Virus record (IMG/VR): IMGVR_UViG_3300030102_000773
Span: 1 to 47,471 of that record
Strand: one strand, 5' to 3'
DNA: 47,471 nucleotides
Source of the DNA: a virus
Part shown: in pieces, positions 1 through 47,471 of the stretch
Position numbering within the stretch: the stretch's first letter is position 1
Layout: the number at the start of each line of letters is the position of its first letter
Translations under genes and position numbers: made by a program
The notes under the pieces: generated by a model
The model's database searches: none
Told to the model about the DNA's origin: nothing
Seen by the model: only the letters and a program-made list of their open reading frames with translations

Positions 1-99
1 ACTGTTTGCGTTACTCAGTCAGACTCAGGAAATTCATTCGTCTGTTGATATAGGTTCTATATCTGAACTCAGAGGCAACGCACAAGTTCTAAGAGACAA
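1..99. repeat. Terminal direct repeat (left copy): circular contig overlap
   Basis: The first 99 bases are identical to bases 47373-47471. The sequence is therefore a circle (unique length 47,372 bp) cut at an arbitrary point, inside the FecR-domain gene. The exact 99-base length matches a common assembler k-mer, so it is more likely an assembly join than a biological terminal repeat. Confidence 0.95.
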
Positions 100-1081
100 A
101 ACTTATGGTGCTGAACTAGACTTTGGCATACTCAGTTATGACAAAGTAGAAACTGCAAATGGACGTATGGGTATCACGTTCATAGACGAAACAGAGATAC
201 GACTAACAGAAAATTCACAAGTTTTAATTGACGAGTTTATTTTTGACCCTGACCCAGATAAATCTAAAATGGCTCTGACTTTTGCCAAAGGCACTGCAAG
301 GTTTGTTACAGGTAAGCTAAATAAAATATCAAAAAAGAATATTAAGATCCGCACAAATTCAGCAGTAGTTGGAATTAGAGGCACAGATTTTACTATAACT
401 GTAGATGAGCTAGGAAGATCATTAGTCATATTACTACCTAGTATTGATGGTACGTCTAGTGGTGAGATAACAGTAGAAACTGCTATGGGATTAGTTGTAT
501 TGAACAAACCATATCAATCAACTGTAGCTAGTGTTTTTGAACAAGCACCAACAAAGCCTGTAATTTTAGATATAACATTAGATCAGATAGACAATATGTT
601 AATCGTAAATCCTCCAGAATCTAAGGAAATCTTGCAAGAAGATACACAACAAAGAGCTTCACAGGATTACTTAGACTTTAATGAACTTGAAATTGACTAT
701 TTGTCAGAAAATTTTTTAGATAATGAAGCAGAGTTAGAATTTACAGAGTTAGATTATGATGCTTTGAGTGTTAATTTTTTAGAGGACTTGTTGAATGTAT
801 TGGACGCATTGGCGATAGAAAAGGAGGAGGACGCACTAAAACAAGGTGGAGTTGGAATCAGAATAACTGGTACAGAGATTGGACAAGACAAAGAAACACA
901 AATAACGACTATAATTACTGGTCAAATTGTAAGTTTTAGAAGGTCGGTTGGTCATACAGTAAGATTAGATTTAGATGGTTCTGGTTCGTACACATTGTTA
1001 CTTGAACAGAATGGGGTTCAAAATTTAATAAAACTAAATGGCGGTTCAGACAGTACAATTAAGATAAAGCAAAGCGAGTGA
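2..1081 (+). CDS. FecR-domain secreted protein (3' part; gene crosses the contig join)
   Basis: This open frame enters from the left edge. After closing the circle it starts at the ATG at 47335 and encodes 372 aa. The first residues form a clear signal peptide (one Arg, then a Leu/Ala-rich core ending near residue 20), so the product is exported. Residues about 30-150 match the FecR fold (PF04773): GSISELRGNA, a YDKVETANGR segment, then RTNSAVVGIRGTDF. In sigma-regulating FecR proteins this domain is periplasmic; in other proteins it stands alone in secreted factors. The middle (about 185-270) is very acidic and Leu-rich. The C-terminus (about 275-372) looks like a small beta domain. The gene overlaps the end of the curlin gene by 86 nt and precedes the spanins, so it is probably co-expressed with the curli module. 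No sigma factor is present, so I infer a secreted partner rather than an anti-sigma role. Confidence 0.85.
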   Translation: MFALLSQTQEIHSSVDIGSISELRGNAQVLRDKTYGAELDFGILSYDKVETANGRMGITFIDETEIRLTENSQVLIDEFIFDPDPDKSKMALTFAKGTARFVTGKLNKISKKNIKIRTNSAVVGIRGTDFTITVDELGRSLVILLPSIDGTSSGEITVETAMGLVVLNKPYQSTVASVFEQAPTKPVILDITLDQIDNMLIVNPPESKEILQEDTQQRASQDYLDFNELEIDYLSENFLDNEAELEFTELDYDALSVNFLEDLLNVLDALAIEKEEDALKQGGVGIRITGTEIGQDKETQITTIITGQIVSFRRSVGHTVRLDLDGSGSYTLLLEQNGVQNLIKLNGGSDSTIKIKQSE

Positions 1082-1121
1082 TGTTTGTTTGCTCAAAAGT
1101 CTTTATACTGTTATTGTAATT

Positions 1122-1526
1122 ATGAGGATGAATCTATCATTAGTATTAGGAGGATTGTTAGCCTTAACAATCGCAAGCACAGCTTGGTACATTGACTATC
1201 AGGCAGATCAGATCAGCACTCTCAAAGGTAATCAGATAGTCTTAGAGACCCAGATAGAAGAACAGAACGCTTCTATAGAACGCTATCTAGAGCAACAAAA
1301 GGCACAAGAAGAACAGCTTAAATTATTGGAAGAAGAGAGAAGAAAGGCTATGCAAGATGTCAACAGACTTAGAAAGACATTTGCTAACTTAGACTTAGAT
1401 CAAGAGGCATTAGCAGATCCAGTAGATCTTCAGAATAGAATAAACAAAGGGTCGCTGAGGGTTTTAACAACACTAGAAAAAATTACAGATCCAGAACAAT
1501 TTAATGAAAAATCTAGCAATAATTAG
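1122..1526 (+). CDS. i-spanin (Rz-like inner-membrane spanin)
   Basis: The product has about 134 aa. An N-terminal membrane segment (roughly residues 4-22, LSLVLGGLLALTIAS core) is followed by a long charged coiled coil (about 25-100) rich in Glu, Gln and Lys. This is the Rz/i-spanin architecture: anchored in the inner membrane with a periplasmic helix that reaches the outer-membrane partner and fuses the membranes at lysis. The next gene is a lipoprotein overlapping its 3' end by 23 nt, the usual Rz/Rz1 arrangement. The start is uncertain: TTG at 1089 and ATGs at 1122 and 1128 are in frame, and none has a strong ribosome site. I chose 1122 because it leaves a short positively charged N-terminus before the membrane helix. 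Confidence 0.75.
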   Translation: MRMNLSLVLGGLLALTIASTAWYIDYQADQISTLKGNQIVLETQIEEQNASIERYLEQQKAQEEQLKLLEEERRKAMQDVNRLRKTFANLDLDQEALADPVDLQNRINKGSLRVLTTLEKITDPEQFNEKSSNN

Positions 1527-1872
1527 TTTGTGCCTCCTATTGGCTAACTGCTCAATGTTGCAGTCAGTCAAACCAGTTCAGGTCAAGACTATATCTGAAC
1601 GGACACCGATTTATCACCCTCCTCTGCCCTATCCCATGAGCCTCACAGAAGTAGACTGGCAGGTTATGACACCAATAACCATGCAGGAATATTTAGATAA
1701 TCTTGAATCTGGCAATGCCACAGAGAGAGCTTTCTACACTTTGTCTAGCCAAGAATATCAGAACTTATCTATGACTATGAGCGAAGTAACCAGATATACA
1801 AGGGATATTCTGTCAATTATTAAATATTATAGAGAGCTAGATAAGGCAGAAGAAGATGTGCAAAAGAGGTGA
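1504..1872 (+). CDS. o-spanin (Rz1-like outer-membrane lipoprotein)
   Basis: The product has 122 aa and begins with a lipoprotein signal: basic start, hydrophobic core, and lipobox LLANC with the lipidated Cys near residue 16. The mature part is Pro-rich early on (HPPLPYP) and then helical, ending in a charged coil. It starts inside the i-spanin gene in another frame. A lipoprotein overlapping a membrane-anchored coiled-coil protein next to an endolysin gene is the diagnostic setting of a two-component spanin. The tail beyond the Pro-rich part (about residues 50-115, TMQEYLDNL, YYREL) is longer than in coliphage Rz1, which suggests that it contributes to the periplasmic bridge. Confidence 0.75.
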   Translation: MKNLAIISLCLLLANCSMLQSVKPVQVKTISERTPIYHPPLPYPMSLTEVDWQVMTPITMQEYLDNLESGNATERAFYTLSSQEYQNLSMTMSEVTRYTRDILSIIKYYRELDKAEEDVQKR

Positions 1873-2520: not shown

Positions 2521-2982
2521 ATGCAAATATCAGCAGAAGGATTATCACTTATTAAGAAGTTTGAAGGCTGTCCTGTAGATCAGGACGGTAATTGTTATGC
2601 CTATCAGGATGTTGTAGGAGTTTGGACAATAGCGTATGGATTCACAAAAGACGTGAAAGAAGGTGACAAGATGACTAAGGAAGAAGCAGAGTATGTCTTG
2701 CAAGAAGAGATGATAGAGTATGAAGGCTACATAAATGATCTAGTAGAAGTACCCTTAGAGCAAAATCAGTTTGACGCTTTAGTTTCTTGGGTCTACAACC
2801 TCGGCTCTGGTAACTTAGAATCCTCAACCATGCTTAAAGTTCTCAATGAAGGCAAATACGAAGAAGTGCCTGCTCAGATCAGAAGGTGGAACAAAGCAGG
2901 TGGTAAAGTATTTGATGGATTAGTTAGAAGAAGAGAAGCAGAAGCAATAATGTTTATGGGAGGGGATTGGTTCGCAGTCTAA
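2521..2982 (+). CDS. Endolysin, T4-type lysozyme (GH24)
   Basis: The product has 153 aa, a normal length for a phage lysozyme. The N-terminus reads LIKKFEG (catalytic Glu15), followed by AYQDVVGVWTIAYGF, which supplies the Asp30 and Thr36 of the GH24 E-D-T set. FDALVSWVYNLG and the Arg-rich RRREAEAIMF C-terminus are also typical. It hydrolyses the MurNAc-GlcNAc bond in peptidoglycan. I chose the ATG at 2521 because GGAGA lies just upstream and the lysozyme fold starts there; a longer frame upstream has no homology. No signal or SAR helix is visible, so release needs a holin. Confidence 0.93.
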   Translation: MQISAEGLSLIKKFEGCPVDQDGNCYAYQDVVGVWTIAYGFTKDVKEGDKMTKEEAEYVLQEEMIEYEGYINDLVEVPLEQNQFDALVSWVYNLGSGNLESSTMLKVLNEGKYEEVPAQIRRWNKAGGKVFDGLVRRREAEAIMFMGGDWFAV

Positions 2983-40801: not shown

Positions 40802-43478
40802 AGCAGTTGAAAACGCATTCAAGGCTGTTGCTACATTTATTGTTGTAGCAACTATTGCTTCAGTTTTTGCCGCCCCCTTTACTGCTGGATTTTCTGCTAC
40901 ATTCAGTACGTTAGTCACTGCTACTACAGCATCTGTGGTGTTCGCCTCAACTTTAGTAGGCGGTTTGATGTCCAAATCAATACAGGCTACACAAGGCAAC
41001 TTTGGAAGTAAGTTTGCGAACAGAGCCCCTACAGCACCAAGACAAATAGTCTACGGAGAATGTAGAGTAGGTGGCACTATTGCGCACATGGAAACTGCAG
41101 GCACAGACAATCATATGCTGCACATGATAGTAGTCCTTGCAGGACATGAGATACAGTCTGTTGAAAAAGTAAGATTGAATGATATAGATTTGACTTCTAC
41201 AACAAGCACAATAAATAGCAAAGAGGTTCATACTGTAACTAATTCAGATTTTACAAACACAGATAACCCTAACGCATTTCCAAGCGGAAGATTAATTAGG
41301 TTTTCTGTAAATCTAGGCGCAGACGATCAGGTAGCGGACAATTTTGCAGTGCAGTCATTGGCAGGCACGACACAAGGCATTTTAAGCACAGACAGGTTTA
41401 GGGGTTGCGCTTATGTTTATATGCAAATGATTTATGATCAACAAAAGTTTGGGGGAGGTATGCCTGCCATATCTTTTCAAGTTAAAGGAAAAAAAGTATT
41501 TGATCCAAGAGATAGTAGCACAGCATTTAGTTCAAACCCTGCACTTATCATTAGAGATTTTATTACAGATACAACCTATGGACTAAAAGCTCTGAGTTCA
41601 GAAATAAACGACACAACTAATGCAGGGGGTTTCGCTGCAGCAGCTAATATTTGTGATCAAAATGTTACCTTATCGGACGGAAGCTCCACTGAAAAAAGAT
41701 ACACAGCCAACGGGTTCACTAATATGTCGGCAACAGGCACAGGTATTATTGAAGGACTGCTTACTTCTATGGCAGGTCAAGTCACATATACAAATGGAAA
41801 ATTTAATATATTTGCAGGAGCGGCACAGACACCATCTTTAACAATTACTGACGATAATTTACTTGAGCCAATATCTTTATCAACAAAGCCCTCTACAGGT
41901 GAACTGTATAATACCGTCAAACCAATTTTCGTAGATGCTTCTAGAAACTTTGTTTCCACAGATGCTCCAATCTATCAGGACAGTACATTTCTAACAGAAG
42001 ATACACCTAACGGAACTACAAGCGACAAGCCGAATTTTGTCAAACAGATGGAGGCTAGATTGCCTTTTACTACTACTAATACTATGGCGCAAAGGTTAGG
42101 CAGAATATCTTTATTGTCGCAAAGAAACACAATGACTCTTTCTTGCTTAGTTGATCTTAAATTTATGCAACTACAGCCCTGTGACTGGGTATATGTGGAC
42201 AATGACAGACTCAGTTTTGATCAAAAGGTATTTGAAGTCGTAAACTGGTCACTGGAACTTACAGGAGAAACCGATGCACAGATAGTAGCTTGCAGATTAC
42301 AGTTAAAAGAGGCATCTTCTTCTGTATTTACTTTTGGATCAAGTGATTATCAAGCAGCAGTAGCATCAGGTAGTGATGTCCCTGTTGGTGGCTTTGATCT
42401 TTCACCCCCAACTAATTTAAGCGTTGCGACAGATAGCAGTGACGTGGACGTTCTCACTAATACATCCGTGACTGCATCTTGGACAAATGCTTCATCTCCT
42501 CACATTTTAGGCACTGAGGTACAATTCAAAAAAACATCTGTATCAAATTATGCCACTGCATTTGCAGGAAGAGGGGAAACTAAACAACAAATTCCCGGAC
42601 TTGAGGTAGGAGTGGCTTATAACTTTAGAGTGCGACATATAAGCCTGACAGGATCATCAAATTTTGACACTGCTAATCATACTGTAGGAGGAACAGCAAC
42701 AGCAAAGTCAGCCCTTACAAACTCAACTGTAAACTATGGCTCTGATGGTACAGGTACTTTGCCCTCTGGAAAAGGCGGCACAGGTATCACAGACTTTGCC
42801 AATTCAACTCACAAAAACTCAAACACAACTAAAGATGATGTTGGATTAGGTAATGTAGATAATGAAAGTTCAGCAACAATACGAGGTCAAGAAACATCAG
42901 GCAACCATACAGGCACTATAGGCGGTACTGCAAACTCAACAATAGTTACAGGGGCAACTAGGGCAAATGCTACTATTGATTCAAACAACAGATTTACTGG
43001 TGATCTAACTGGTAATGTGAGAAGCAATGGAACTACAAAAAGCATGAGTGAGATCATAGATGCACACGATAGGTCAATAGCAGGTTTGGACTCAAGCGGT
43101 AACGTGCAGAGGGCTGTACCACAATCACAACTTACAAATGTGATTACCTTTTCAGTCAATCAACAAGCCTTCATTTGGTCAGAGATAAGTAATGCAGGTT
43201 ACGTTCCAACAGCAACTTCTTTTACATTTAATATTACATGGAAAGATGGTAATGGAACGACTGTGGCTACCTCAAGATGGGTAGCTACAAGAGATACGAC
43301 AAATGACCATGTTGATAATTCAGGCATCACAAATAACGTAACAGGATCGGGTGTTACTAGTTCTGTAACAGGAGGAGACTCTACATTTATGACTGTAACA
43401 TTCACAAAAGGAGGCACAAGTTGCACAGTGTCTGCTAGTCTTGTGACATTTACTGGATTCACCTTTAAGAGTGGGTAA
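40794..43478 (+). CDS. Tail tip attachment protein (J-like)
   Basis: The product has 894 aa. An Ala/Thr/Val-rich hydrophobic N-terminus (about 8-62) is followed by a J-like hub core (PTAPRQIVYGECRVGGTIAH, FRGCAYVYMQMIYDQQKFGG, LIIRDFITDTTYGLKA). Residues about 535-625 have a fibronectin III pattern (PPTNLSVATDSSD ... VGVAYNFRVRHISLTG). The C-terminal 250 residues are Thr/Ser/Asn-rich and beta-helical in appearance. It closes the tail and probably contacts the host receptor. Confidence 0.82.
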   Translation: MGKAVENAFKAVATFIVVATIASVFAAPFTAGFSATFSTLVTATTASVVFASTLVGGLMSKSIQATQGNFGSKFANRAPTAPRQIVYGECRVGGTIAHMETAGTDNHMLHMIVVLAGHEIQSVEKVRLNDIDLTSTTSTINSKEVHTVTNSDFTNTDNPNAFPSGRLIRFSVNLGADDQVADNFAVQSLAGTTQGILSTDRFRGCAYVYMQMIYDQQKFGGGMPAISFQVKGKKVFDPRDSSTAFSSNPALIIRDFITDTTYGLKALSSEINDTTNAGGFAAAANICDQNVTLSDGSSTEKRYTANGFTNMSATGTGIIEGLLTSMAGQVTYTNGKFNIFAGAAQTPSLTITDDNLLEPISLSTKPSTGELYNTVKPIFVDASRNFVSTDAPIYQDSTFLTEDTPNGTTSDKPNFVKQMEARLPFTTTNTMAQRLGRISLLSQRNTMTLSCLVDLKFMQLQPCDWVYVDNDRLSFDQKVFEVVNWSLELTGETDAQIVACRLQLKEASSSVFTFGSSDYQAAVASGSDVPVGGFDLSPPTNLSVATDSSDVDVLTNTSVTASWTNASSPHILGTEVQFKKTSVSNYATAFAGRGETKQQIPGLEVGVAYNFRVRHISLTGSSNFDTANHTVGGTATAKSALTNSTVNYGSDGTGTLPSGKGGTGITDFANSTHKNSNTTKDDVGLGNVDNESSATIRGQETSGNHTGTIGGTANSTIVTGATRANATIDSNNRFTGDLTGNVRSNGTTKSMSEIIDAHDRSIAGLDSSGNVQRAVPQSQLTNVITFSVNQQAFIWSEISNAGYVPTATSFTFNITWKDGNGTTVATSRWVATRDTTNDHVDNSGITNNVTGSGVTSSVTGGDSTFMTVTFTKGGTSCTVSASLVTFTGFTFKSG

Positions 43479-44074
43479 TGCTAAAGATAGAGACAGACAA
43501 TATCTATCTCAGGCTTTTGGCAGAATCAGATATGCCTGTGATAGCTACCGCAATGACAGGAGTTCATGCTTTTGATGCCTTACCTACCGAGACAGATCAA
43601 AAGTATTTTTACTATAAAGCAAACGTCCAAAACAATACTTTCCCCACAACAGAAACAGTTTTAGGTGATACTAAGATTGGACACTTCAACATGACAATAT
43701 GCCTTAGATCAGATGATTCTCCGATTGGTTTCTGTGTGACTAGATATGTCGGAAAATCCATAGAACAAAAAGTGACAGCCATCATACCTGCACAAAGAAA
43801 TAAGAAATACTACACAGAAAGCACTATAGCAAGACACAGATTCTACTATGATACTTTGCAAGCAGAGGACTCAACAATAATAATACCTACCACAAACACA
43901 GGCACTAACACATCAGTTAGGCAGACTTTAGATAGCCTTTATAAAACAGACGAGAAGGTTTACACAATAGAGCAGGGAGAATACAGAGTGTCTAAGATCA
44001 CTAAGGATGAATGGACTACATGGCTAAACAGTTCAAGCAAGAAAGACCTGACCTATAATCTTACTTGGAGTTAG
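43478..44074 (+). CDS. GNAT-like protein 1
   Basis: The product has 198 aa. The N-terminus (IETDNIYLRLLAESDMPVI) is the opening of a GNAT acetyltransferase fold. The core DDSPIGFCVTRYVGKS is followed by VTAIIPAQRNKKYYTESTIA, where the acetyl-CoA loop (normally RxxGxG/A) reads QRNKKYY, so catalysis may be lost. It overlaps the tip gene by one base and is followed by a second similar gene. The target could be a tail protein or a host factor; unknown. Confidence 0.6.
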   Translation: MLKIETDNIYLRLLAESDMPVIATAMTGVHAFDALPTETDQKYFYYKANVQNNTFPTTETVLGDTKIGHFNMTICLRSDDSPIGFCVTRYVGKSIEQKVTAIIPAQRNKKYYTESTIARHRFYYDTLQAEDSTIIIPTTNTGTNTSVRQTLDSLYKTDEKVYTIEQGEYRVSKITKDEWTTWLNSSSKKDLTYNLTWS

Positions 44075-44075
44075 T

Positions 44076-44723
44076 ATGGGATATGCGAAACCTACAAGCG
44101 AAAGACTATATTTTAAGTTTATAGAGATAGAGGATAAAGATGCCTTGAAGGATGCGCTATCAGATTGGAGAGCAGATGGAGTTACAGAATCAGATTATGA
44201 GTTTGATCTACGAATTAAAAAATGGCTAGAGCAAAACAAGCTTATGAGAAGCGAAGGAGTTGCAGAAGAAGATGATCTAAAGGTGGAGAATGTAATGAGA
44301 AGAGATTGTTGGTGGACTGAGGGAATATACCTTAGATCAGACGATACTTGCATAGGCTTCACTAGGGGCAAGTTTTCAGATAATTGCTACTATCACTATG
44401 TGACAGCAATTAGACCTAGTTACAGAGGCAACGGGTACTTTGGAGAGTGTAATCTCATGGGCAATAAGATTTTATTCACAACTTATACGCATATAGAAAA
44501 ACAAATTTCTATGATACCAGTAGATGAACTTAACAAAGAAAACTCTTACGCTTCATTAGATGCTTTAGGTACAGATGATGTAAGGGAGACAAGGACAGAT
44601 AGAATTGCACCGACCACATATCAAAAGAAAATAATAACGAGAGATCAGTTCATGGAATGGTACAACAAAGACGAGCAGAAGCCACTTAGGGATGCTTACT
44701 ATAACTATGAGATAATAAACTAA
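44076..44723 (+). CDS. GNAT-like protein 2 (N-acetyltransferase-like)
   Basis: The product has 215 aa and is laid out like the preceding gene: ERLYFKFIEIEDKDAL at the start, CIGFTRGKF in the core, then YVTAIRPSYRGNGYFGECNL, which retains the RGNGYFG acetyl-CoA-binding loop. Both proteins end with a similar ITRDQFMEWYN / ITKDEWTTWLN segment, so they are tandem paralogues with one likely active. Neighbours are tail tip genes on the left and a holin-like gene on the right. Confidence 0.65.
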   Translation: MGYAKPTSERLYFKFIEIEDKDALKDALSDWRADGVTESDYEFDLRIKKWLEQNKLMRSEGVAEEDDLKVENVMRRDCWWTEGIYLRSDDTCIGFTRGKFSDNCYYHYVTAIRPSYRGNGYFGECNLMGNKILFTTYTHIEKQISMIPVDELNKENSYASLDALGTDDVRETRTDRIAPTTYQKKIITRDQFMEWYNKDEQKPLRDAYYNYEIIN

Positions 44724-45073
44724 TGCAAGAAGCTGTAACATTAATTAATGAGGTTGGATTTCCTATAGCTGCTGCAGGCGGTCTGGGTTTTTTTATATGG
44801 AAACTTATAAACAGAATTATTGATGGTATGGAAACCAAACTTGATACGCTAGATGATAAACAAGCCGAACTGATATCTAATATGGAAGAAAGGCTTGGCA
44901 CTAAACTAGACTCACAGCATGGAATACTGGTAGCATTAATTGACCGAGTTCGCAGCCTTGATAATGAGATCATTCGTTTGGATGTTATGCTCAAGACAGC
45001 AACGGGATTAGGTCATTTAGTTGACACAGACAAAGTAGCAAAAGCAGATAGAGATGATCAAAGAAAAGATTGA
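44723..45073 (+). CDS. BhlA/UviB-like holin-type membrane protein
   Basis: The product has 116 aa. One membrane segment near the N-terminus (GFPIAAAGGLGFFIWKLIN, about residues 12-30) is followed by a long coiled coil (about 35-90). This is the layout of BhlA/UviB-like holins, in which a short hydrophobic helix carries a cytoplasmic coil. It starts the membrane-protein cluster leading into the curli and lysis genes, and is my leading holin candidate. Confidence 0.65.
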   Translation: MQEAVTLINEVGFPIAAAGGLGFFIWKLINRIIDGMETKLDTLDDKQAELISNMEERLGTKLDSQHGILVALIDRVRSLDNEIIRLDVMLKTATGLGHLVDTDKVAKADRDDQRKD

Positions 45074-45302
45074 ACAAATAGAAAGAGAACAGTTAGTCTC
45101 AATAGACAACGTAATATTTGAACCCATTCCTAAAAGGTCTTATCCGCGAGACAAGTATATCTACGAGGACGAAAATTATAGAGCAAAACAAGATATGATT
45201 TACCTTGAAAAACTAGGTAGGACTATTGAAAGAACCTCCATTGCGTTTATCTTATTGTCTTTGACTGGGTTATTCGCGGTTCTACTTTGGGCATCAAATT
45301 AA
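45054..45302 (+). CDS. Small tail-anchored membrane protein
   Basis: The product has 82 aa. A charged body with Pro/Arg/Tyr-rich middle (PIPKRSYPRDKYIYED) ends in a C-terminal membrane helix (about 61-79, SIAFILLSLTGLFAVLLW). It overlaps the holin-like gene by 20 bases. It could be an antiholin or partner; no family is recognised. Confidence 0.58.
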   Translation: MIKEKIEQIEREQLVSIDNVIFEPIPKRSYPRDKYIYEDENYRAKQDMIYLEKLGRTIERTSIAFILLSLTGLFAVLLWASN

Positions 45303-45311
45303 GGAGTAAAC

Positions 45312-45509
45312 ATGGCTAAAAAAAAGAAAATATCTAAAAGACAAAAAGTTTTTGATTTCATTGATAATACAATAGATTTGTTACAAGAAAATTGGAAAAG
45401 ATACGCAGTAATGTCTTTCTTTTTAGTTGCATTTGGTTTTATAGGCTACCTTACCTTTTTTTGGATAGATACAATAGATAGCGTACGATTGGTAATCACA
45501 TATTTGTAA
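45312..45509 (+). CDS. Small basic membrane protein
   Basis: The product has 65 aa with an AAGGAG site. The N-terminus is very basic (AKKKKISKRQKVFD). A membrane segment covers about 32-52 (AVMSFFLVAFGFIGYLTFFW) and a short C-terminal part follows. It is the third small membrane protein in a row before the curli genes. Holin, antiholin or secretion accessory are all possible. Confidence 0.58.
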   Translation: MAKKKKISKRQKVFDFIDNTIDLLQENWKRYAVMSFFLVAFGFIGYLTFFWIDTIDSVRLVITYL

Positions 45510-45531: not shown

Positions 45532-45966
45532 ATGCTGTTACTAATATTAGTTATTTTTATGGTTACGTCTGTAAACGCAGATGAAATGGTGCATAAATTC
45601 AAATCACCGTCATTTAGCGGACAAAGCACATCAAGCCATTATCTTACCATTGAGAACCAAGAATTCAGTCGTAAAGAAGCCATACGAGAAGAGATCAACG
45701 CCTTAATAGAAGAACTAGAGCGTGAAGAAGAAAACACCACACTAGCTCGTTTTGTACGTAATTTTGAATCTAGGGTGTTTGCTCAGATTTCACGAAATCT
45801 GGTAGAGAGTTTATTTGGTGAAACTCCCTCACAGTTCGGTACTTTAGAATTAGAAGGTAACACCATAGAATATAAAGTAGAGGACGATAAGGTAACACTT
45901 ACAATAACAGATGAAGAAGGCAATGTTACAGAAATTACTGTACCTCTCGGTTCTTTCACTTTCTAG
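45532..45966 (+). CDS. csgF: Curli assembly factor CsgF homologue
   Basis: The product has 144 aa. A signal peptide (LLLILVIFMVTSVNA, cleavage before Asp17) is followed by KFKSPSFSGQ, matching the CsgF N-terminus (F-R-N-P-N-F-G-G) that plugs into the CsgG channel. LARFVRNFESRVFAQISRNL matches its middle helix, and VTLTITDEEGNVTEITVPLG the C-terminal strands. In bacteria CsgF forms a ring on CsgG and directs curlin nucleation at the cell surface. An acidic insertion (about 50-70) is not in E. coli CsgF. The csgG start overlaps its 3' end by 56 bases, so both are translated together. Confidence 0.88.
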   Translation: MLLLILVIFMVTSVNADEMVHKFKSPSFSGQSTSSHYLTIENQEFSRKEAIREEINALIEELEREEENTTLARFVRNFESRVFAQISRNLVESLFGETPSQFGTLELEGNTIEYKVEDDKVTLTITDEEGNVTEITVPLGSFTF

Positions 45967-46765
45967 TTGCGCCTTAATAATACCGCCATTAGACAACGGA
46001 ATTCCACCTATAAGGACTATTGAGTCGGCAGAGGTTGGTTCTTTGTTAACCGAACTTGCAGAAGCCACTCCTCCCGAACGAAAACCTGTTGTGGCTGTAT
46101 ATCCCAATTCTTTCAAAGACGATACAGGACAACGCAGAAGCAACAGTCAATACGCTAGTTTTAGCACAGCCATAACACAATCACCAGATGCGTACCTTAT
46201 AAGAGCTTTAAAGCATTCTGGTGTTTTTGAAGTAGTAGAACGTACAGGTTTAGACAATTTAACAAAAGAAAGACAGATAATTCGTTCAACAAGGGAAAAT
46301 TTTGATGATGAACAACAGCTCAAACCTTTATTATTCGCAGGTTTGTTGATGGAGGGTGGGGTTGTTACCTATGAAACTAATATCAAATCAGGAGGAGCAG
46401 GCGCAAGATATTTGGGTATAGGTGCTTCTAAAGAATACAGACAAGACTCAGTAACCATATCTTTAAGAACTGTATCTGTTTTGACAGGTAAGATTTTGAT
46501 TGAGGTTTTAGTTACCAAAACAATATTGAGTGCTGCTGTTTCTTCTGATGTGTTCAGATTTTATGCTAACAATACCGAACTGGTTGAAATAGAAAGCGGT
46601 ATAGTAGAGAATGAGTCAATAAACTATGCTTTACAGATGGCGGTAGAGACAGGAGTTTTAGAAACAATAGAGGAGGGCTATGAACAAGGCTATTGGAAAC
46701 ATAAACAGACTGATATTATCAAGCCTGATTGCGATGATGAGTGCATCGCTAATTTACGGGAATGA
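45911..46765 (+). CDS. csgG: Curli secretion channel CsgG homologue
   Basis: The product has 284 aa, near the 277 of E. coli CsgG. It has a lipoprotein signal with lipobox LSSC (Cys20). Family blocks are clear: KPVVAVYPNSFKDDTGQ, YASFSTAITQSPD, FEVVERTGLDNLTKERQII, MEGGVV, KSGGAGARYLGIGASKEYRQ and TKTILS. CsgG forms a nonameric outer-membrane channel. In the constriction loop the Phe (Phe84) is kept, but the Asn of E. coli (Asn55) aligns with Ser83. The last 25 residues, with KPDCDDEC, extend beyond the family and overlap the curlin gene start by 86 bases. An in-frame ATG at 45923 is an alternative start. No CsgE is visible. Confidence 0.95.
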   Translation: MKKAMLQKLLYLSVLSLSSCALIIPPLDNGIPPIRTIESAEVGSLLTELAEATPPERKPVVAVYPNSFKDDTGQRRSNSQYASFSTAITQSPDAYLIRALKHSGVFEVVERTGLDNLTKERQIIRSTRENFDDEQQLKPLLFAGLLMEGGVVTYETNIKSGGAGARYLGIGASKEYRQDSVTISLRTVSVLTGKILIEVLVTKTILSAAVSSDVFRFYANNTELVEIESGIVENESINYALQMAVETGVLETIEEGYEQGYWKHKQTDIIKPDCDDECIANLRE

Positions 46766-47420
46766 TTCAGAAATTTTTATTGAACAGTCGGGTGCGACAG
46801 CTAATTTGGACATAGAACAAGTTGGCGGAGGCGGAAACATTATTGGAGGTGCTGACGCAGAAGCAGGTTCAATGACTGCGCTAGATTTAGATGGCGGCAA
46901 TATGACGCTAGACGTTTTGCAGAAAGGCTCAAATAATAAATTCTTAGGAGATATATGGGCTGATAATTATACGGGTTACTTCTCTTACATTGGGGACACA
47001 AATACCTTTAATATGTCAACCGACGAGACAAATGCAACTGGAGCAGATGGTTCAAACGTAAACGTACAAGTCACAGGCAACACAAACACCATGACCCTCA
47101 ATCATGCCATGACAGCACTAGCAGCGAACCTAGATTTAGATTGGATTATACAAGGTGGAGGCAACAGTATTACAGCAGCTATAGACGTAGATGGTGCAAC
47201 TAACTACATGGATATAGATGGTGATGATAACACTGTAACTTATGATGGGGATGGGTATGCAGGTGGCTACTTCTACTTAGATCATACTGGTAACGATAGG
47301 ACTTTTAATATAGATCAGGAATCAACATCCGATAATGACTGGCTTAAGATTACATCTTCTGGCTCTAATGGCACTGTTTGCGTTACTCAGTCAGACTCAG
47401 GAAATTCATTCGTCTGTTGA
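46680..47420 (+). CDS. Curlin-repeat secreted protein (CsgA/CsgB-like)
   Basis: The product has 246 aa. A GGAGG site precedes the ATG. A signal peptide covers about residues 1-27 (RLILSSLIAMMSASLIYG). The mature part repeats the curlin pattern of strand-Q-x-G-x-x-N-strand: IEQSGATANLDIEQVG (35-49), LDVLQKGSNNKF (77-88), VQVTGNTNTMTL (129-140), WIIQGGGNSI (155-164) and KITSSGSNGTVCVTQ (223-237). This suggests a beta-solenoid amyloid subunit exported through the neighbouring CsgG/CsgF. Repeats are less regular than in CsgA and richer in Asp. Two Cys (234 and 246) close the C-terminus, which is unusual for curlins. No separate nucleator gene is present. Confidence 0.85.
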   Translation: MNKAIGNINRLILSSLIAMMSASLIYGNDSEIFIEQSGATANLDIEQVGGGGNIIGGADAEAGSMTALDLDGGNMTLDVLQKGSNNKFLGDIWADNYTGYFSYIGDTNTFNMSTDETNATGADGSNVNVQVTGNTNTMTLNHAMTALAANLDLDWIIQGGGNSITAAIDVDGATNYMDIDGDDNTVTYDGDGYAGGYFYLDHTGNDRTFNIDQESTSDNDWLKITSSGSNGTVCVTQSDSGNSFVC

Positions 47421-47471
47421 TATAGGTTCTATATCTGAACTCAGAGGCAACGCACAAGTTCTAAGAGACAA
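47335..47471 (+). CDS. FecR-domain secreted protein (5' part; continues at position 2)
   Basis: This is the start of the gene whose body occupies 2-1081. The ATG at 47335 lies in another frame inside the curlin gene. The first 20 residues (MTGLRLHLLALMALFALLSQ) form a signal peptide, and the FecR fold follows from about residue 30. A second ATG at 47368 would remove the Arg and most of the hydrophobic core, so 47335 is preferred. Bases 47373-47471 duplicate 1-99. On a linear reading the gene looks headless; only the circle shows that the protein is exported. Confidence 0.75.
   Translation, partial: MTGLRLHLLALMALFALLSQTQEIHSSVDIGSISELRGNAQVLRD
47373..47471. repeat. Terminal direct repeat (right copy): circular contig overlap
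   Basis: Identical to bases 1-99. Closing the circle here restores the complete FecR gene and keeps the frame intact, which supports the join. Confidence 0.95.

Follow-up and report, generated by a model that had tools for sequence, protein, structure and literature searches.

A putative curli-type secretion module in the lysis region of a siphovirus

Why would a phage carry the genes of a curli secretion channel, together with a candidate substrate, among its lysis genes? This question is raised by a locus in IMG/VR record IMGVR_UViG_3300030102_000773, of which we analyzed the whole stretch of 47,471 nucleotides (the window). An earlier note, made from the sequence alone, had described a complete phage genome with csgF, csgG, a curlin-repeat gene and fecR in that order. 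The open reading frames lie where that note had placed them (Table 1), and the overlaps that it gave for csgF/csgG, csgG/curlin and curlin/fecR (56, 86 and 86 nt) are exact. We favor, with somewhat better than even confidence, the reading that these four co-inherited genes, set between holin-like genes and spanins, make up a type VIII (curli) secretion unit with which the phage exports a curli-like fiber late in infection.

Table 1. Module genes and neighboring features, in window positions
Feature	Position	Strand	Description
hol116 (phrog_18771)	44723..45073	+	116 aa; one N-terminal transmembrane stretch, coiled coil; lysis-linked
tm82	45054..45302	+	82 aa; C-terminal transmembrane stretch (hydropathy); optional, in a minority of relatives
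tm65	45312..45509	+	65 aa; one transmembrane stretch (hydropathy); optional
csgF	45532..45966	+	144 aa; signal peptide and CsgF; PF10614, 1.4e-18
csgG	45911..46765	+	284 aa; outer-membrane lipoprotein secretion channel; PF03783, 5e-52
curlin-type protein	46680..47420	+	246 aa; signal peptide and predicted beta-solenoid; presumed secreted substrate
fecR, first part	47335..47471	+	crosses the circular junction; last 99 bases repeat bases 1-99
fecR, remainder	1..1081	+	FecR domain, then an acidic disordered linker and a curlin-like beta module at the C-terminus
Rz-like inner-membrane spanin	1089..1526	+	phrog_739, 2.4e-8
Rz1-like outer-membrane spanin lipoprotein	1504..1872	+	overlaps Rz; phrog_812 Rz-like spanin, 2.6e-16
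lysozyme-type endolysin	2521..2982	+	same protein family as L183:5419-5955

The phage and its four-gene module

The first and last 99 bases of the window are identical, and the genome therefore closes into a circle of 47,372 bp. Across the closure fecR forms one intact frame of 372 aa. The window encodes a tail terminator, a major tail protein, a tape measure protein, and distal tail and J-like tip proteins, and by these tail genes the phage is classed as a siphovirus. Named relatives are only distant: all those of the terminase, and nearly all those of the portal protein, are below 60% identity. A siphovirus carrier is also backed by independent related contigs, which repeat, in whole or in part, the order tip protein, two unknown genes, hol116, csgF, csgG, curlin, fecR, Rz, Rz1, nuclease and lysozyme. 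A chimeric assembly of phage and bacterial DNA near 45.5 kb was ruled out, both because other contigs share the gene order on both sides and because the fecR frame is intact across the circle closure. The two adjoining genes between the tip protein and hol116 (43478-44074 and 44076-44723) are kept in sister siphoviruses and were without an NCBIfam match.

The placement of the four proteins in the CsgF, CsgG, curlin and FecR families, expected in the earlier note, held in Pfam for CsgF, CsgG and FecR but not for the curlin itself, of which only relatives match. In CsgF, the mature N-terminus bears the pore-inserting motif F-x-x-P-x-F-S-G, with F23, P26, F28, S29 and G30 invariant in nine phage CsgFs. 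The CsgG match is full-length, covering positions 6-208 of 210 in PF03783, and is accompanied by a lipoprotein signal (lipobox LSSC, invariant Cys20); a phage CsgG profile matched E. coli CsgG structures at 2.4e-65. The window curlin remained below threshold for the curlin repeat (PF07012), which gave weak matches in 17 of its 45 relatives (8.6e-6 for the homolog in phage Melnitz). Most invariant columns of the 45 homologs are Q, G or N, residues of the sort by which curlin repeats are defined, and are spaced as in curlins; they include Q36, Q47, G50, N53, G83, N86, G105 and N108. Furthermore, when a profile built from phage-module curlins only was run on 38 bacterial csgFG loci, it picked up neighboring curlins in most of them, with up to 93 bits. 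AlphaFold2 confidently predicts an all-beta solenoid after the signal peptide (pLDDT 84.2, pTM 0.80), while a Foldseek search of this model against the PDB gave nothing significant (E. coli CsgA fibril 8enq, E = 0.51).

The CsgG and CsgF families are shared with Escherichia coli csgBAC/csgDEFG. In contrast to that system, the window has no recognizable CsgB, FecR is added, and the curlin repeats have diverged. The CsgE gate of the canonical curli operon was likewise not found: as the earlier note had it, a PF10627 search of the genome was without match (an E. coli control matched). Gating and substrate loading would therefore differ from those in E. coli. A search for CsgH was also without match, with the positive control likewise silent.

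To see how constant the module is, we surveyed 140 distinct CsgG loci, almost all from IMG/VR, which are not a random sample because they were recruited by CsgG peptide patterns. The four genes keep a fixed order across these loci: where there was room for the gene, csgF was present in 110/110, curlin in 99/99 and fecR in 99/99. In agreement with the earlier note, the window phage encodes both channel and presumed substrate. The csgF/csgG overlap measures 56 nt in 106 of 135 loci, and the curlin/fecR overlap 86 nt in 92 of 118, and from this arrangement we infer that the four genes may form one translational unit. Median dN/dS against relatives was lowest for curlin (0.074), followed by csgG (0.10), csgF (0.13), fecR (0.17) and hol116 (0.42); since dS is near saturation, the ranks count more than the values.

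Known phage modules and exchange of the block

Modules of this kind have been described before in other marine phages. In nine HTVC023P-type podoviruses, Wittmers et al. (2022, PMC9599517) found CsgF, CsgG, CsgA/B and FecR in a constant order, to which an adenylate cyclase and another CsgA/B are often added. The same study reports this gene set in pelagimyophages, finds such modules abundant in the open ocean, proposes their transfer across phage families, and suggests roles in aggregation, superinfection defense and import. 'Sibling capture' has also been proposed (Zaragoza-Solas et al. 2020, PMC7029224). With csgF, csgG, curlin and fecR in order on one strand, the window locus belongs to this phage T8SS (curli) module. 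It shares with the pelagiphage version (HTVC023P-type podoviruses and pelagimyophages; PMC9599517, PMC7029224) the gene order, the lack of CsgE, CsgC and CsgD, small gene(s) just upstream and a CsgG that stands apart from bacterial CsgG. It differs in its siphovirus carrier, in having holin-like genes before and spanins after the module, and in lacking both a second curlin and a cyclase. The curli regions of the Methylophilales phage Melnitz and the Pelagibacter phage HTVC008M resemble the window in having homologs of all four genes and two hol116 copies before csgF. However, these phages are myoviruses, their CsgG is only 39-48% identical, and they add a second curlin and a cyclase, both absent from the window. 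In HTVC008M, this second curlin-type protein (L082:9483-10808), annotated only as hypothetical, has a PA14 domain (2.7e-6) in addition to curlin repeats (5.2e-8); such an architecture suggests a glycan-binding fiber component.

The earlier interpretation therefore stands with regard to the channel, the substrate and the lysis setting, but not with regard to newness. It had held that the self-made substrate and the FecR partner may be new, whereas the same order was published in PMC9599517, and curlin-type proteins are already annotated in the records of Melnitz (with FecR as well) and HTVC008M. In the texts searched by word, neither a siphovirus carrier nor the lysis-gene neighborhood is described, and the words 'spanin', 'holin', 'endolysin' and 'lysozyme' are not present in the text of PMC9599517. 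The system is overall of a known kind. Four points are new and, to our knowledge, unreported: that a siphovirus carries the module, that precisely four genes are exchanged as a block, that an upstream 'kinase' can be re-read as hol116, and that the phage FecR has a conserved curlin-like beta module at its C-terminus.

We determined the position of the window CsgG in a quick tree, where it sits among phage contigs. All 38 bacterial CsgG fall on one branch (support 99), joined only by OR851715. This 1.5-kb 'Salmonella phage' record with csgG (OR851715.1, L084) was rejected as a phage carrier, as it groups inside bacterial CsgG, and is probably bacterial (host) DNA.

Nucleotide identity with the sister siphovirus L358 changes along the locus. 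Identity is 91-99% from the two unknown genes through tm65, 54-82% from csgF to fecR, and back to about 80% in Rz/Rz1. Conversely, three phage contigs whose flanks are unlike those of the window (L003, L004 and L006) are collinear with it, at 82-83% identity, over a 2.87-kb block that starts in csgF at the mature protein (45577) and reaches the end of fecR (about base 1072). The left edge of the exchanged block falls just after tm65. In L362, a sister siphovirus, the same site is occupied by a third and divergent version, which includes a cyclase and an additional curlin (PF07012, 5.9e-18). The moving unit is csgF-csgG-curlin-fecR, with hol116 staying with the recipient. This extends the cross-family transfer proposed in PMC9599517, and ties fecR to the channel and the fiber.

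Such exchange bears on whether the genes have a function at all. Related phages infect hosts without curli genes (PMC9599517, PMC9004378), as might be expected of decaying or neutral acquisitions. Low dN/dS in all four genes, the fixed order with its overlaps, and the recurrent exchange of intact blocks argue against this reading, which we consider very improbable.

Six contigs from GTDB that carry the module (L158-L163) were rejected as bacterial curli loci on their gene content. They are labeled as MAGs of Maricaulis, Neomarinimicrobiota, Synechococcus, Flavobacteriaceae, Rhodobacteraceae and Pelagibacter; they are probably mis-binned phage contigs and could mislead bacterial curli surveys.

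Lysis genes around the module

Upstream of the module lies hol116 and downstream lie Rz/Rz1 and a lysozyme, in agreement with the lysis region described in the earlier note. The Rz-like frame opens with a TTG at 1089, although an ATG at 1128 is likelier by start context. The family of the endolysin is represented by L183:5419-5955, which matched Phage_lysozyme (PF00959) at 5.3e-47. In a related siphovirus without csg genes (L376:14494-17813), the place of the module before Rz is taken by two other proteins that are predicted to be secreted. One is a 371-aa protein with long N/T/S low-complexity runs, and the other an acidic protein of 744 aa without convincing Pfam match; this slot possibly holds a different export or fiber cassette.

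A protein of the hol116 type, of about 80-122 aa, was found upstream of csgF in all 110 loci examined, with one copy in 66 and two in 44. The window protein matched PHROG 18771 (6.7e-17) and, weakly, holin PHROGs (1e-3), and proteins of this type had no kinase match. Within the named phage collection, hol116 occurs only in the HTVC008M and Melnitz records, where it also lies before csgF. In IMG/VR, csg-less phages carry it as well, beside holin-type genes and an endolysin of the lysozyme or M15 kind. According to PMC9599517, the module is 'always' preceded by a gene, sometimes two, annotated as a histidine kinase. Equated via the paper's description rather than its sequences, this gene is probably hol116, which may be more aptly described as a membrane protein of the lysis region, perhaps a holin or antiholin. 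Six large virus contigs (L191, L197, L201, L215, L216 and L232; 37-349 kb) depart from the layout of the published pelagiphages, having two hol116 copies with cyclase, fecR and csgG on the opposite strand or with csg genes close by.

This neighborhood could mean that CsgG and CsgF are themselves a lysis device, a gated or cued pore that weakens the outer membrane or depolarizes the cell, with the curlin and FecR as its plug or trigger. A role in lysis timing has been proposed for Melnitz (Buchholz et al. 2022, PMC9004378), and the position between holin-like genes and spanins is not peculiar to the window: a spanin or endolysin follows fecR within 4.5 kb in 39 of 53 loci, and two more have a lysozyme upstream. 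However, HTVC008M has no spanin or endolysin of the modeled families within 4.5 kb after fecR. Where spanins and endolysin are intact beside the module, as in the window, the pore is not needed as their replacement. Considering that the substrate is both the most constrained gene and never missing where there was room for it, a role as a bare pore only is disfavored. We regard the lysis device as unlikely, and fiber export remains our preferred reading.

The FecR protein and the proposed fiber export

The FecR protein matched PF04773 (3.4e-12) and, as the earlier note proposed, is secreted and followed by the spanins. Its signal peptide directly precedes the FecR domain, in place of the cytoplasmic anti-sigma segment and membrane span of FecR anti-sigma regulators. 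The AlphaFold2 model shows three parts: the FecR domain, an acidic linker predicted to be disordered (about 201-284, numbered along the modeled chain) and, at the C-terminus, a beta module (about 290-357). Foldseek matches of the model included FecR-family domains of PupR and other anti-sigma proteins, over the FecR-fold part only, and the 'cell surface anchoring domain' of an adhesin (5ix9, E = 0.011). No homologs of FecR or hol116 were found near bacterial csgFG in 38 loci within about 8 kb. A 307-aa gene before csgF in L261, FecR-like by eye, gave no profile match and was rejected as FecR.

FecR could also regulate the fiber, in a circuit with the cyclase and 'histidine kinase' of other copies, or serve iron or cofactor import via an open CsgG, as proposed by Wittmers et al. 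(PMC9599517). A CHASE2-adenylate cyclase, a true member of its family, indeed follows fecR in 41 of 53 loci. Yet it went undetected in the other 12 and is absent from the window phage, and the 'kinase' position is taken by the small hol116-type membrane protein. Moreover, fecR moves with csgFG and curlin as a block. As a secreted protein that lacks a cytoplasmic anti-sigma segment, FecR is likelier a structural partner than an iron regulator. We therefore give the regulatory or import reading little credence; that FecR is a structural partner or nucleator of the fiber is our reasoned guess.

The tail of the protein is where such a role might reside. Its last 30-odd residues roughly follow the pattern YTxxxxQDGxSNxxKxNGG...IxIxQ in nearly all window-type copies. 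An hhalign comparison of the tail with the curlin gave E of 0.001-0.005 and probabilities of 3-7%, above 60 shuffles, which is weak and suggestive only. A profile search with the tail returned a mixed list of matches. Among the matches listed from 190 alphaproteobacterial genomes, FecR relatives end before the tail, except in phage contigs, and the bacterial ones cover profile positions only up to about 233 of 370.

In our reading of a fiber-exporting unit, CsgG would form a channel in the outer membrane late in infection and CsgF would cap it. The phage's own curlin would leave via Sec and then CsgG, and polymerize as a curli-like beta-solenoid fiber on the dying cell. The FecR-fold domain would stay in the periplasm, while its curlin-like tail would dock on or nucleate the fiber, perhaps replacing the missing CsgB. 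Our analysis establishes the genes with their families and constant order, the constraint on the substrate and the exchange of all four as a block; late expression, export, fiber formation and the role of FecR are inferred. A bolder version, which we put forward tentatively as a minority possibility, combines two proposals. FecR would be a new kind of nucleator-anchor, whose periplasmic FecR fold is joined through a long, flexible acidic linker to a curlin-like rung that caps and anchors the fiber in place of CsgB, and csgF-csgG-curlin-fecR would be a self-contained fiber cassette, swapped across phage families behind a lysis gene and with export timed with lysis.

Candidate benefits of the fiber are host aggregation, virion trapping, exclusion of rivals and help to lysis. 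Infected Melnitz cultures showed no clumping of cells (PMC9004378), which counts against aggregation as a general function. If the fiber-export reading is true, viruses that make their host export an amyloid-type fiber would change views of lysis, aggregation and superinfection in the open ocean. The exact four-gene exchange block offers the minimal unit for expression and testing, and the lysis-gene setting leads to a checkable prediction on timing.
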